Part shown: positions 4,701 through 13,379 of the stretch, in pieces
Layout: each line of letters opens with the position of its first letter
How positions within the stretch are numbered: the stretch's first letter is position 1
Assembly: GCA_019693395.1 (NCBI GenBank)
Contig: JAAMXP010001658.1
Coordinates: forward strand, 1 to 14,083
Length of the DNA: 14,083 bases
Source of the DNA: Ettlia oleoabundans
Lineage: Eukaryota > Chlorophyta > Chlorophyceae > Chlamydomonadales
Reading direction: 5' to 3'
Made by a program: the position numbers and the translations under genes
Notes under the pieces: model-generated
Databases searched by the model: none
What the model was told of the DNA's origin: nothing
What the model saw: the letters and a program-made list of their open reading frames with translations, nothing else

Positions 4701-4849
4701 ACCGCCAGCTGCTCGTTGTCTCCTCCACACCTCTACTCATCAAATAAGGCGCACCCCGTGGCGGAAGAACCCATCCACCTCAACAGCTAGCTAGTTGTCT
4801 CCTCCTCTAGTCATCAAAAACCTTGCACTCCTTGGCAGAAGGGTCCACC
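4701..4849. repeat. Decayed tandem copy of the ispD stop-codon region
   Basis: Bases 4716-4779 match 4795-4849 with substitutions and indels (TTGTCTCCTCC at 4716 and 4795, TCATCAAA at 4737 and 4810, a GCAC(T/C)CC block, then (C/G)GAAG...TCCACC). A shorter match, CAGCT-(A/G)CT at about 4706 and 4785, extends it left. The right-hand copy carries the end of the IspD coding sequence including the second tail cysteine; the left-hand copy lies in the 3' UTR and no longer encodes it. Confidence 0.75.
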
Positions 4850-7800
4850 GTCTCGCAGTAGTCCACCCGTTGCTGGTCCAGGGGGTCTGCCGCCCCGGCT
4901 GCCGCCGCGAGCTTGGCCGCCGTCGCAGCCTCCTCAATAAAGCGCTCCGCCACCGACATGTCATCGGGGGTGGTGACCTGCCAGGAAGAGCAAACCCTCA
5001 TTCTTATCATTAACAAAGTTATGAATCTAGTCAGAAAACATCTAATAAAGAAATCGGTGATCCAGCCCATTTGTGCGCCCCGGAAACAAGGAGATTGGAG
5101 GGAGAACTCGGGCAAGAAGGGTCGAAGGATCATATCTGTACAATCGTGCCAGGTCAGCAGAGCATGCCACCTCAGCGCATGGCATCAGCTGGCAGCCGCA
5201 CTGAATGCCGCCACGTCCCCATGCAGTACCACCAGTTCCTCACTGCAGTACCCCCACCTCCTTGCAGTACCAGTAAGGTCACAATGCAACACTACCACCT
5301 CCTCATTGCAGTACCATCACGCCCTGCTTCCATGTGTTACCTTGATGTTTGTGTAGCTGCCAGGTGTGATGCGCACGGGCTTGCCTAGGGCCTCAATGAT
5401 GGACACGTCATCAGTCACCTCCAGGCCCTCCCGCTGCATGGATTAGGAAAGGAACGCGACCAGCATATGGCAAGATATCACACATGCGAGCAGCAGCACA
5501 TGCCACTTAGTGCACCTGAAGTGTCCTCAAGCCATCATCTGATCAAAGTGATTCAAAAAAAGCCTTCTCATTTCCTGCTCATTTCATTTCCTGCTCCCAT
5601 GCACCTGAACCAGCTCAAAGCCCTCCCGCAGCAGTGGCGGACGAATGACCTGCACCCAACAGCCACAGCATGCACAGCAGGGCATGTTGGATATGTACAC
5701 GAGTGCGGTGTGATGCTGGGGACAAAGAAACATTGTTGGGCATCCTCAAGCAGAAGCAATAAAGGTTCTGACTGCTTGTGCAGAGCTGGCTGCCGCCGTG
5801 TGCTCACTGCCAGCTGCATAACGGCTGCTGGAGAAGTTCGTATCAGGTGTAGTATTAATGTACAGTGCACAGTGTACAATTCGCACAGTGTACAGCAAAC
5901 AGGCGCACAGTACACACGCGCACTGTGGGTCTTACCCACTGAGGCATTGCAGCTCCCGAAAAGCAAAGCTAAGGGCTTGAGTGATGCTCACCGACAAACT
6001 CGTTGCATACGTAACACTGCCAAAACGCAGAGAGCCAGAACTAATAACCCCAACCTTGCTTGCTGTGCGTCGGCACCTCCGCAGCCGACCATATCTCAGC
6101 AGTTCCACCACCATCCTGTCACCTTTCACCCTAGTTGTGACAGTTAACTGCAGTACACACAGTAAATAACGGGCCGTACATACCTGTGGAGTCTGCACCT
6201 CCCAGAGAGCAGAGCGTTTCAGTGTCTTCACCACCATGCGGTCGCCATCCACCTCCTTTATTGTGGGCTTCACCGGCACACCCAGCACTGCAGCACCCAC
6301 CTGCGGCGATAAGCAAATGAAGTGAGTTGGCAGCAGGGTTGGAAGGAAACAGCCAGGATAAAATGGAGGTGGGTGGGCGCTCCCTTGTACAATCCCCAAG
6401 CACCTCCTATGAAGCCCAGTGAGGAGCATCTCTGTCGGTAGCTCCCGCTTGGAAGCAGGGCAGGACCGGGGTCAACAAGGTATATCAGAAAGAGGCAAAG
6501 GCCTATATAGGTGGCAGTACCATCAAGACTGTAACCGAAGCAGCACCTCACCTCCCATGCATCCGCAAAGCATTTGAGTGCATCTTCTGCCGTCACCAGC
6601 GGCCGCGCCGAGTCGTGGATGGCCACAAGCTGTGGGTACGGGCAAACACAAAGGGAGGTGAGGGGCCGGCAGGGGTTGCTGCGCCATGGAGAACGGCTGC
6701 GGGTAGGGAAAACAGAACAGGGAGCAACAACATGTGCAAGTTTGAGGACGGGCAGGACTGTTCCAAGTCATGGACAGGCCCCATTTGTGGGGTGGGGAGG
6801 CAGCAAATCAGCAGACAAGCAGTCAAGTACAAAGCAGCGATGGTGAACACACTTTCAAAGATTGCTACAGACTAGCTGAATTCAAAATGTGAGACAAAAG
6901 TTTGACAGTCCGGAGGCAACATGCAGCGCATGCAATCCGTCCCCCGTCCGCGGGGGTATTGTCTCTCTATTGACTCTACCACCCACATGCGCTGCTGGAC
7001 CACTTTGCAGGAGCCGCAGAGCACTGGGGTGGCACGCACGCGTGTTTGCAGCCATTGCGCACATGAATCACCCACTGACACCGACTCCAACCCCACCTGC
7101 GCTGCTGAATCAATCTGCTGGAAGCCGCTGAGCACGCTGTCCTGCCGCTCGGCACCAGGGGCCGCAAACTTTAGGGGCAGCTGACGGGGCATGCGAGTGT
7201 AGCAGCGCTCAAACACGTCGCTGCAGGCAACACGGTGCAATGACACACAGCATTCGCCCGGCTGAACTGTCCCCCCNNNCCCCCCCCCCCCCCCCCAAGG
7301 AAGGGAGCAGGCCAGAGGAGCAAGCAGAAAGAGAGCTGCCCAAGACAGCAAGCCCTTGAGAGGGTGTGTAGGAATTCTGCCATTTGTATGGCACGCAAAG
7401 CATGCGGCCGAATGAGGGACAATGCAGCGGCCTAGCCATAGGGTAGGAGCAAGCCCGAAGCGGGATTTGAGCTTGCTCTTTGCGGACGGTGCTGTCCCAG
7501 GGAGGCAACAACAAAATAGGAGCAAGCGACAGCCAGCAGCAGGGCAGGAGAGACAGCCAGCAAACAGGATGGAAGCAGAGCAGCCAACAGACTAGCCGCG
7601 AGCAGGATCAACCAGCGACAGCAACAGTCAGCAGCTAGCATAATCACCGCCACTCCGGTTCGCACACCACCACAATCTCGCCGACCTGCACCAAATGCCC
7701 GAAGCAAGGCATTGGCACACATTAGAATGATGGCCAGGCTGCTTCCGCAATATGCCTACTGATGAGGCAGCTTCCCAACACCATATGTTGCGGACGGGTC

Positions 7801-8812
7801 ATCACAAGTAATGACACGGCTTAATTGGCTGTGGTGCATGTTGCTGAAGCACGTGCTTCTGCCGCTGTTGCTGCTGCTGCTCTGTCTCTCGCCCTGCTTG
7901 AAACCCCGGAGCTGCAGCAGCACAGCAGTGCTGGACCGCACCTGGGGCATGGCCGCAAACATCTGCATGCTGTAGGTGGCAATGGGCTGGCCCTTCAGCT
8001 CCAGGTATTGCTTGGGGATGGAGGCCTGCATGGCAGTACACAAGCGGCAGGCTATGCGGTACATGGGCGGTGGGCACTAGCAGTACGCAAGCAGCGAGCA
8101 GTGGCGGTGCAGATGCGGAGGGCAATGGCGGCGCGCAGGCAACAGGCACTGGTTTCACATGGGTGGCAAGCAGCATGCCCCAGCGGCAGGCAAAGCAGCA
8201 GTAGTGCAACTGTTAGTCGTGTCAATTAGCCAGGTAATGGCGGACAAAACGCGTGAATTCAGTGATAGAAGCACAACAGCACAGAAAGGGGCCCACTTAT
8301 AACGGCGGCATGCTTAAATGTGTTTAATCAAATTTTAAGTGGTTGTTGTGGTGCCGCTGCCTGGCATGCTCACCCCCATGCGCTTGCCCACGCCGCCCGC
8401 TAGCAGAACCAGGCTCACGCTGCCCTCAGGGATTGCGCTGGCACCATTGCCGTTGCTCTGCACTCGTGTGACAGAAACGACTTAGCCTGAGATTGGGAAC
8501 AGCCGAACGTTGTGAAATTCTCCCACGATGTGCACTGAGTGACGTAAGCAGGACGGCAGGAGCTTGCAGGCAGCGGCGGCAGCTGTCTGGCGGCAGGAGG
8601 GGCCTCACCTGGGCTGCGGCCTGGCACACAACGATCCTGCGAGCCGCTGCCGATGCATAAGCTGTTCTTTGAGCCTGCCGCTTGCTGCCGGCATAAGCTG
8701 AACGCCCGCTGCTAAACCCTGCTGCTCCGCGAGCGACGAGTCTTGCTGGAAGTGGCGGGCGAGCAGTGCCCTGCCTTGTGTTTACGCCAGTAAATGCGGC
8801 ACGAGCAGCCAT
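4807..8812 (-). CDS. ispD: IspD, 2-C-methyl-D-erythritol 4-phosphate cytidylyltransferase, plastid form, with CP12-like tail
   Basis: IspD converts MEP and CTP to CDP-methylerythritol and pyrophosphate, the third step of the plastid MEP isoprenoid pathway. Exons on the minus strand: 8812-8609, 8457-8374, 8025-7942, 7685-7648, 7220-7097, 6629-6552, 6300-6184, 5649-5605, 5433-5341 and 4977-4807 (TAG). All phases agree and give 345 aa. Exon 1 (68 codons) is an Ala/Arg/Ser-rich transit peptide; the chosen ATG has G at -3 and G at +4. Seen in order: nucleotide-binding AGGVGKRMG (88-96) with PKQY (100-103), VVVCEP (129-134), GAERQDSV (159-166), IHDSARPLV (182-190), VPVKPTIK (212-219), LWEVQTPQ (236-243), TDD (265-267) and KVTTPDD (289-295). 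Arg94 and Lys101 match the catalytic Arg and Lys of the family. Known plant and bacterial IspD end about where residue 305 falls; here about 40 residues follow. Eight of nine introns are in phase 0. Introns above 300 bp (4978-5340, 5650-6183, 6630-7096, 7221-7647, 8026-8373) show only the repeats or N gap listed separately. Confidence 0.95.
4810..4887 (-). other. CP12-like redox tail at the IspD C-terminus
   Basis: Residues 320-345 of the IspD model begin DPLDQQR and end [17 protein letters not shown], preceded by an Ala-rich linker (306-319). CP12 tails, and their copies on GapB and Chlamydomonas ADK3, share a DPL(E)-like lead, an acidic segment between two cysteines, the end E-C-(K/R)-V-(Y/F)-acidic, and a position at the extreme C-terminus. 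The cysteine codons are at 4857-4855 and 4827-4825. The spacing here is C-x9-C, one residue more than the usual C-x8-C. In the known proteins the pair forms a thioredoxin-controlled disulfide that binds or inhibits GAPDH-type partners; that role for IspD is inference. Confidence 0.7.
5220..5330. repeat. Degenerate TGCAGTACC tandem repeat in ispD intron 9
   Basis: TGCAGTACC(A/C) or close variants recur at 5222, 5243, 5262 and 5307, separated by CACC/CCTC-rich spacers. The tract sits in the 363-bp last intron of ispD, between exons 9 and 10. Confidence 0.65.
5859..5926. repeat. GCACAGTGTACA direct and inverted repeat cluster in ispD intron 7
   Basis: GCACAGTGTACA occurs at 5867 and 5883, a GCACAGTACAC variant at 5905, and inverted forms (TGTACAGTGCAC at 5859, GCGCACTGTG at 5918) flank them. 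The cluster could fold as a cruciform or RNA hairpin. It lies inside the 534-bp intron 5650-6183. Confidence 0.6.
7277..7297. other. Assembly gap (NNN) beside a poly-C run in ispD intron 4
   Basis: Three Ns are flanked by C homopolymers, with about 17 Cs on the right. It lies within the 427-bp intron 7221-7647 and does not affect the coding sequence. The gap probably reflects homopolymer sequencing failure, so its length is unreliable. Confidence 0.85.
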
Positions 8813-12000: not shown

Positions 12001-13379
12001 ATGGGAATCTTAGGCAGCGGCGCCCACCAGATGCAAGGGCGCTACCGCAACACGGTGCGTTCAAGACCATCCATGCAGCTGTTTCACTTCGTCACCGCAG
12101 CGGTCGGAGCGAAGCAGGCAGCCGCAACCGTCACCGAACACGTCCGCGACAGCAGATCTCGCGGCGGCGGGCCCGCAGCGGACCATCAGCACCGCGCAAC
12201 GTGCCGCTCCGCCTCACCCCGCCCGCCGAACGCTTCCCCTCTTTCCTTGGTGCAGAGCCGCTTTGGGCAGCAGCAGGGCGGCGTGCCCACCTGCCAGCGC
12301 TGTTTGCAACAGGGTCATTGGACGTACGAGTGCAAGAACGACCCAGTCTACCAGAGCCGCCCCACACGCACCCAGCAACTCAAAAACCCACGGGTGGGTG
12401 GGTGGGTGGCTGGGTCACTCGCTGCATGAATGTGTACCTTTGAGCGAAGGCCCACATGCGACAGAGTGCCCTGTGCACTTGTGATGGTGCAAATGTGGTG
12501 ATGCTAGAGGAGGGGAGGGTGTGTTTTAAAGACAGGTCAAAAAGTACAGGCAGAGAAGTGGGAGGTGGGGAGGTGGCTGCATGCCTGGTTGGCTGGCTGG
12601 CTGGCTGGCTGACTGGTTTCCTTCCACTCACACCAAGCGCCTCTTGGGGCACCCACCTCTCCACCATATCACCCACCCTGGCTGTCTCCCATTGCCTCTC
12701 AGTTTGAGTCCTGTTCCATCTTCCCACCACCCCACGCCCTTTGTTTCGCCCTTTCTTTCCACCCCCGCAGGCCCGCCCGCGTTTCCTGGACGCCTCAGAG
12801 CTGCCCCCTGAGCTGCGGGACAAGGACTTGGCTGGCGCCCGACTGGGAGGAACGGAAGGGGAGGAGGAGCGCAAGAAGAAGAAGAAGCGCAAGCGGCAGC
12901 GGTCCAGCAGCGGCAGCAGCAGCGGCAGCGATTCCAGCAGCAGCAGCAGCGGCAGTGACAGCGATAGCTCTGGCTCGACAAGCACCAGCGACAGCAGCAG
13001 CAGCGGGAGCGGCAGTTCCAGTAGCAGCAGCAGCGCGAGCGACAGCGATTCCTCTAGCTCGGGACAAAATGGCAGCAGCAGCGGCAGCAGCAGCAGCGGT
13101 GGTTCAAGTAGTTCGGGATCAGGCTCAAGTTCCAGCAGCGGCAGTAGCAGCAGCAGCAGCGAGTCTGAAGGGCGGAAGGGACGGCGTAAGGGCGGCAAAG
13201 GGGGCGGCAAGGGCGCCGCCGCCGCCTCGGCACGGCAGCAGAAGCGAGGCAAGCCCTCTCAGGCGGCCAAGCAGGACGAGGCGGCGGCGCGGTACTACGA
13301 GGAGGGGGGAAAGAAGAACAGGGGGAAGATGAACAGCCGCAGCCGCAGCAGGGACAGGCAGCGGCGGTCCCGCAGCTGA
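12001..13379 (+). CDS. ZCCHC10: ZCCHC10-like CCHC zinc-knuckle protein with Ser/Gly tract and SR tail
   Basis: Exons are 12001-12054, 12256-12393 and 12771-13379 (TGA), all joined in phase 0, giving 266 aa. The ATG has A at -3 and G at +4. Exon 2 encodes one zinc knuckle, [14 protein letters not shown] (residues 31-44; C-x2-C-x4-H-x4-C), followed by [15 protein letters not shown]. This arrangement, a knuckle with GHWTYEC and then RPSRT-x-x-L, is the ZCCHC10 signature. Exon 3 adds [21 protein letters not shown], a Lys/Arg block ([10 protein letters not shown], likely nuclear localisation), about 90 residues that are nearly all Ser with Gly and Asp, a basic Gly/Lys block and a terminal [13 protein letters not shown]. 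Zinc knuckles bind RNA or single-stranded nucleic acid and SR tails mark splicing-related nuclear proteins, so an RNA-processing role is likely but inferred. Intron 2 (377 bp) starts inside a GGGT repeat. Confidence 0.82.
12391..12415. repeat. (GGGT)n microsatellite at a splice donor
   Basis: The donor of intron 2 of the zinc-knuckle gene (CGG|GTGGGT) lies at the first unit of a GGGT repeat. Several GT dinucleotides in phase-shifted positions follow at 4-bp steps. Confidence 0.8.
12586..12616. repeat. (TGGC)n microsatellite
   Basis: A run of GGCTGGCTGG units with minor interruptions lies in intron 2 of the zinc-knuckle gene. Confidence 0.8.
12898..13165 (+). repeat. Ser/Gly-coding low-complexity tract
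   Basis: AGC-rich trinucleotide DNA within exon 3 of the zinc-knuckle gene. Serine is written with AGC, AGT, TCC, TCT, TCG and TCA codons, so the tract is not a simple triplet expansion. Confidence 0.85.

Follow-up and report, generated by a model that had tools for sequence, protein, structure and literature searches.

The window (the whole 14,083-nucleotide stretch analyzed, from the green alga Ettlia oleoabundans) carries on its minus strand a gene for 2-C-methyl-D-erythritol 4-phosphate cytidylyltransferase (IspD), whose features are collected in Table 1. The catalytic domain of the predicted protein is complete (Pfam PF01128, residues 82–304, 197.3 bits with a cut-off of 27), and the first ∼80 residues, which are rich in alanine and arginine, look like a putative plastid transit peptide. 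An exon-by-exon search of the alga's own genome (32.9 Mb, 1230 contigs) found no second IspD locus. Micractinium and Chlorella vulgaris supply the nearest proteins among the matches listed (77% along the full length), and the C. vulgaris protein reaches 91% over 226 domain columns, which places the alga in the Chlorella clade. The assembly contains two runs of N in the window, neither of which affects an exon of the IspD model; one of them lies inside an IspD intron and adjoins a run of C. Upstream of IspD we noted a stop-free frame of 792 residues, Ala/Gln-rich by eye, which possibly encodes a large coiled-coil protein. A zinc-knuckle gene on the plus strand (zf-CCHC_3, 67.5 bits, scored on three pieces that were joined by hand) encodes a long tail rich in Ser and Arg, as in splicing-associated proteins.

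Table 1. Features of the window and the CP12 gene of the same genome (window positions unless a contig is named)
Feature	Position	Strand	Content or basis
IspD gene	8812-4807	minus	10 exons, 345 aa; spliced from sequence, all introns GT-AG
IspD exons 1-5	8609-8812, 8374-8457, 7942-8025, 7648-7685, 7097-7220	minus	splice model
IspD exons 6-10	6552-6629, 6184-6300, 5605-5649, 5341-5433, 4807-4977	minus	splice model
IspD last exon, 171 nt	4807-4977	minus	IspD end motif, linker, CP12-like tail and stop
Ala-rich linker, residues 306-319	4888-4929	minus	between IspD domain and tail; alignment of 7 tails
CP12-like tail, residues 320-345 (26 aa, DPL...FDD)	4810-4887	minus	genome searches, profiles, relatives
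IspD stop codon TAG	4807-4809	minus	splice model
Stop-free frame, 792 aa	9304-11682	minus	
Zinc-knuckle gene	12001-13379	plus	zf-CCHC_3
Runs of N	1012-1015, 7277-7279		
CP12 gene of the alga	contig C324, exons 1865-2043, 1501-1585, 1173-1238	minus	splice model

The IspD protein continues for 41 residues beyond the C-terminal limit of the Pfam match, in agreement with a first-pass annotation of the window that had put the extension at about 40. That annotation described an alanine-rich linker running into an acidic, two-cysteine end (residues 329–345) with a DPL lead, and the translation bears this out, with the cysteines at residues 330 and 340 and thus a C-x9-C spacing. After the second cysteine the tail closes with KVFDD, a basic residue, valine, an aromatic residue, and two acids. 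In the splice model the tail is in frame and shares one exon with the conserved end motif of IspD and is thus not a separate last exon. Two other origins were rejected: wrong splicing, since conserved IspD sequence lies in the same exon, and an adjoining CP12 exon, since the CP12 gene maps to a different contig, C324. The window protein has no N-terminal cysteine pair and, as had been remarked before, no upstream AWD-VEEL motif of the kind found in stand-alone CP12.

We compared 202 IspD C-terminal ends, comprising the best 120 matches of each of two relative searches (201 different proteins) and the window protein; as these are the best-listed matches, relatives of the tailed queries are over-represented. 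By eye, 11 ends were classified as tailed (a regular expression missed P0123 and P0124), and untailed metagenome predictions, such as P0194, a close neighbor of P0124, may have been truncated at introns. The tailed proteins among the matches listed are, in the Chlorella clade, those of the window, Micractinium sp. CCAP 211/92, C. vulgaris, M. tetrahymenae, C. ohadii (P0007), and C. sorokiniana (P0008) and the metagenomic proteins P0005 and P0006 and, outside this clade, P0116, P0123, and P0124. C. ohadii IspD and the metagenomic P0124 exceed the IspD cut-off of TIGR00453. The public model of P0008, which we count as tailed, has a long, different N terminus and runs past ECRV into other sequence; it is probably a mis-merged gene model hiding a CP12-like end. 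The expectation that related algal IspDs keep both cysteines holds for eight of the 10 rows of the Chlorellaceae-type clade but fails for Parachlorella and the metagenomic P0009 and for 189 of the 192 other C-terminal ends among the listed matches, so that the tail is lineage-restricted. Untailed IspDs among the matches listed include those of Parachlorella, Coccomyxa, Trebouxia, Chlamydomonas species, Volvox, Tetradesmus, Ulva, Pedinophyceae YPF-701, Klebsormidium, and land plants, as well as Picochlorum and Botryococcus (organisms read from the record names).

An alignment of seven Chlorella-clade tails (P0008 left out) reveals both cysteines, the DPL, the EC, and the valine to be invariant, and pairwise identity is 77% in the tail motif versus 55% in the linker columns. 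The linker itself measures 11–14 residues in the Chlorella clade and varies in sequence and length among the relatives. The end signature K/R-V-F/Y-acid-acid is present in 10 of the 11 tailed IspDs, the exception being P0008, whose model runs on. In the window subclade the C-x9-C spacing, shared by five of the eight Chlorella-clade tails, places a proline at +5, one residue off the CxxxPxxxxC pattern. The caveat raised earlier over this spacing holds for the window and is partly answered by the canonical arrangement (C-x8-C, Pro at +4) of five other tails, namely the close relatives P0006, C. ohadii, and C. sorokiniana and the distant P0123 and P0124. In P0116 the spacing is C-x10-C and the proline is missing. 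From the sequences, the C-x9-C spacing counts mildly against a docking geometry identical to that of CP12.

The homology of the tail to CP12 was assessed in the genome and with profiles. When the last 35 residues of the alga's own CP12 were searched in six frames against the whole 32.9-Mb genome, three places matched at E ≤ 10, two of them CP12 exons and the third the IspD tail (24.4 bits, E 0.0016, 53% identity). A degenerate eight-codon pattern (E-C-[KR]-V/I/T/A-[YF]-acid-acid-stop) occurs at two places in the genome, in CP12 and in the IspD tail, and the reversed pattern, our control, at none. The strict end pattern is found at none of the three adenylate kinase loci. In a C-terminal HMM built from four CP12s, the alga's own included, the 11 tailed IspDs rank as the top 11 of the 202 C-terminal ends (17.9–32.7 bits versus 5.6 bits for the best of the 191 untailed ones), and when each tail was shuffled 2000 times, no shuffle scored as high as the real sequence. 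Removing the alga's own CP12 from the profile keeps the order but narrows the margins (tailed 8.0–28.5 bits, best untailed 6.0 bits), the window tail scoring 13.0 bits versus a shuffled maximum of 10.0 and P0008 8.0 versus 7.8. Profile-to-profile alignment of the seven Chlorella-clade tails with CP12s in hhalign gives 96.5%. The metagenomic P0123 (25.3 bits) and P0124 (28.1 bits) pass the Pfam CP12 cut-off of 22.7, and P0006 and C. ohadii give sub-threshold matches (16.4 bits, E 0.016).

Pfam CP12 matches neither the window protein nor its 50-residue tail, nor six of the 10 tailed relatives scanned, and the IspD tail used as a query against its own genome finds itself alone and misses CP12. 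A phmmer search of the PDB with the window tail was non-significant, the best hit being a phycoerythrin (E 1.2) followed by three CP12 chains (E 1.8–4.3). A contig scan with the alga's CP12, in a provisional splice lacking the second N-terminal cysteine, found no relatives. Of 35 candidates searched with the P0124 tail, P0124 itself and P0123 were the only ones matched at E ≤ 10; as this search also missed GapB and ADK3, it is no census of tailed proteins. Taken together, the comparisons make it well supported at the sequence level that the tail is homologous to the C-terminal, GAPDH-binding half of CP12. The proposal of the first-pass annotation, a CP12-like tail fused to IspD, is supported by this genome-wide, profile, and comparative evidence, the profile similarity being above chance.

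The alga's own CP12 is canonical, with three exons and four cysteines (77.5 bits), and ends in AAGGKDPLED-KRVNEYCEENPAEPECRVYDE. A 262-base intron separates DPLED from KRVNEYC, at the site of the Chlorella-type insert; its acceptor was chosen from the sequence, and with an acceptor farther downstream the insert would come out shorter. The gap between DPL and the first cysteine is seven residues in all eight Chlorella-clade tails and eight in the alga's CP12, the one Chlorella-clade CP12 compared, and is three in P0116, P0123, P0124, and the CP12 of PDB ID 2lj9 (the CP12s of 6gfo and 5nmu have no DP, which leaves their gap unscorable). Since the insert is common to the Chlorella-type tails and the alga's CP12, the sequences favor a local origin of the tail from a Chlorella-type CP12. 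Exactly at the insert, CP12 carries an intron and IspD none, which suggests that the tail was copied from a spliced message or before the intron arose. The fusion probably arose in an ancestor of the Chlorella/Micractinium clade.

In a 59-row tree, tailed IspDs occupy three separate parts, namely the Chlorella/Micractinium group, P0116 next to the untailed Pedinophyceae sequence (at a weakly supported fork), and P0123/P0124 within a group of metagenomic sequences. A single clade of all tailed IspDs was rejected (p-AU 1.7e-36; the group was picked after the tails had been seen). The scattered tails may reflect either repeated gain or one ancient gain followed by many losses.

The genome holds three GAPDH loci. 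The GAPDH on contig C192 ends in ...VVDLAEVTATKWE, without a GapB extension, and shows motifs that we read as NADP- and CP12-contacting; from its motifs we take it to be of the GapA type. The partner that such a tail would need, a GapA-like GAPDH, is thus apparently present in the same genome.

We obtained AlphaFold2 models of C. ohadii IspD (C-x8-C) and C. vulgaris IspD (C-x9-C) from 50-row alignments with nine tailed rows each. A fold search with the C. ohadii model gives IspD and related TarI structures as the 50 matches listed, and the model is 57–60% identical to Arabidopsis IspD crystal structures; these matches concern the core only, not the tail. In both models the C-terminal helix of IspD is predicted to continue through the linker. 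The modeled tail consists of a helix that ends two residues past the first cysteine, a turn, and a short helical turn ending at the second cysteine. Block pLDDT values are 85–92 along the long helix of the tail and fall toward the extreme end, where the last blocks are at 71 in C. ohadii and at 86 and then 58 in C. vulgaris. Oxidized CP12 has been described as two small disulfide-linked helices with sub-nanomolar affinity for GAPDH (PMC8151241).

We consider it probable that the IspD tail represents the GAPDH-binding half of CP12 and that redox-controlled docking on GapA couples synthesis of 4-diphosphocytidyl-2-C-methyl-D-erythritol (CDP-ME) to the state of the Calvin cycle. The functional half of this reading, that is disulfide formation, thioredoxin control, and tethering of IspD to GAPDH, we infer by analogy. 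Upon oxidation in the dark, the two tail cysteines would form a disulfide, and the oxidized tail would fold into a small helical hairpin that, like the tails of CP12 and GapB, would dock on GapA in its NADP(H) pocket. IspD would then be held on GAPDH in competition with CP12 until, in the light, thioredoxin reduced the disulfide and freed the enzyme. The likely effect would be a coupling of CDP-ME synthesis to the on/off state of the Calvin cycle through sequestration or stabilization of IspD in the dark, and not through a block of its active site. Because the tail keeps a CP12-type end of the sort that meets the GAPDH pocket, parking or stabilizing of IspD on GAPDH appears likelier than direct inhibition. 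The broader claim, that green algae recruited a CP12 tail onto IspD more than once, with the MEP pathway switched or IspD parked by the light/dark disulfide of the Calvin cycle, we regard as evenly balanced.

The main rival is a role in cis, in which the oxidized hairpin of a CP12-derived tail would inhibit or stabilize IspD itself without stable contact to GAPDH, much as GapB is inhibited by the tail that it carries; we judge this to be unlikely. The C-x9-C spacing of the window subclade would then mark the shift in function, and the departures from C-x8-C in five of eight Chlorella-clade tails and in P0116 (C-x10-C) point this way, as does a linker of only 11–14 residues that is modeled as a helix continuous with the C-terminal helix of IspD. 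On the other hand, the basic residue, valine, aromatic residue, and two acids are kept in all 10 tails whose end is intact, in GapB and CP12 it is the acidic end that enters the GAPDH pocket (PMC4436894), and the exact CxxxPxxxxC pattern is present in three relatives and two distant IspDs. Still less probable is a neutral leftover, in which a CP12 fragment was captured by an IspD gene whose C terminus tolerates additions. Many listed untailed green IspDs do close, past the TTPDD motif, with unrelated sequence of differing length that is rich in Ala, Ser, or Gln, but the higher identity of the tail motif compared with the linker, the invariant cysteines, DPL, EC, and valine of the seven Chlorella-clade tails, and the recurrence of similar tails in three separate parts of the tree speak against it. 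Chance resemblance or a gene-model artefact, which would fit the lack of significant Pfam and PDB matches when the window tail is searched by itself, is very improbable and already contradicted by the genome CP12 search, the end pattern, the HMM ranking, and hhalign, and by a tail that is in frame in an exon of conserved IspD sequence and recurs in the proteins of several named species.

Pyruvate and glyceraldehyde 3-phosphate are the starting compounds of the MEP pathway, and it has long been asked how flux through this pathway keeps pace with photosynthesis. If docking of the IspD tail on GapA is correct, it would link carbon fixation and isoprenoid synthesis directly through redox state, and it suggests that the supply of pigment and terpene precursors may share the day/night redox switch of carbon fixation. 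The CP12 tail would then be a portable GAPDH-docking tag, repeatedly acquired by plastid enzymes outside the Calvin cycle, and its removal a possible handle on the output of carotenoids and terpenes in Chlorella species of industrial use. In this alga, whose genome search turned up a single IspD locus, the idea is definite and can be tested cheaply. In Arabidopsis, redox changes have been reported for DXR, IspG, and IspH, and the word IspD is absent from the main text of that study (PMC11142374).

In the open-access literature searched we found no report of a CP12-like tail on IspD, in keeping with the first-pass annotation, which knew of no such description, and no report of CP12-type redox control at the IspD step. 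In the land-plant IspDs among the matches listed, no more than about 35 residues follow the TTPDD motif, and there is no such tail. The bearers of CP12 sequence named in the review texts consulted are GapB, ADK3, argininosuccinate lyase, a cyanophage protein, and CBS-CP12 (PMC9406205, PMC4436894, PMC8151241, PMC3906501); IspD is not among them. CP12 itself (PF02672) shares with the IspD tail the DPL lead, two cysteines, the E-C-[KR]-V-[YF]-acid-acid end, and, in the alga's own CP12, the long gap between DPL and cysteine; it differs in being a stand-alone protein with an N-terminal cysteine pair and an AWD-VEEL motif for PRK binding, and the window subclade departs from it in its C-x9-C spacing. 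GapB, like tailed IspD, is an enzyme with a C-terminal half-CP12 tail, which however sits on GAPDH itself rather than on a cytidylyltransferase of the MEP pathway. Its tail is described as being under thioredoxin control (PMC4436894, PMC3906501), and the acidic ends of the GapB and CP12 tails as entering the GAPDH pocket (PMC4436894). In the cyanobacterial CBS-CP12 proteins, CP12 sequence is likewise joined to another domain, although the partner there is formed by CBS domains, and the Microcystis protein is reported not to form the GAPDH/PRK complex (PMC9406205). Chlamydomonas ADK3 resembles tailed IspD as a non-GAPDH enzyme with a CP12-like tail, of the CxxxPxxxxC pattern that is exact in five tailed IspDs and one residue off in the window, and differs in host enzyme and pathway; it has been reported to bind GAPDH (PMC9406205, PMC8151241), and argininosuccinate lyase is named beside it in review text as a bearer of a CP12-like tail. 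CP12-tailed enzymes are thus already known, and it is the host enzyme, the pathway, and the scattered recruitment that appear to be new within the open-access literature searched.
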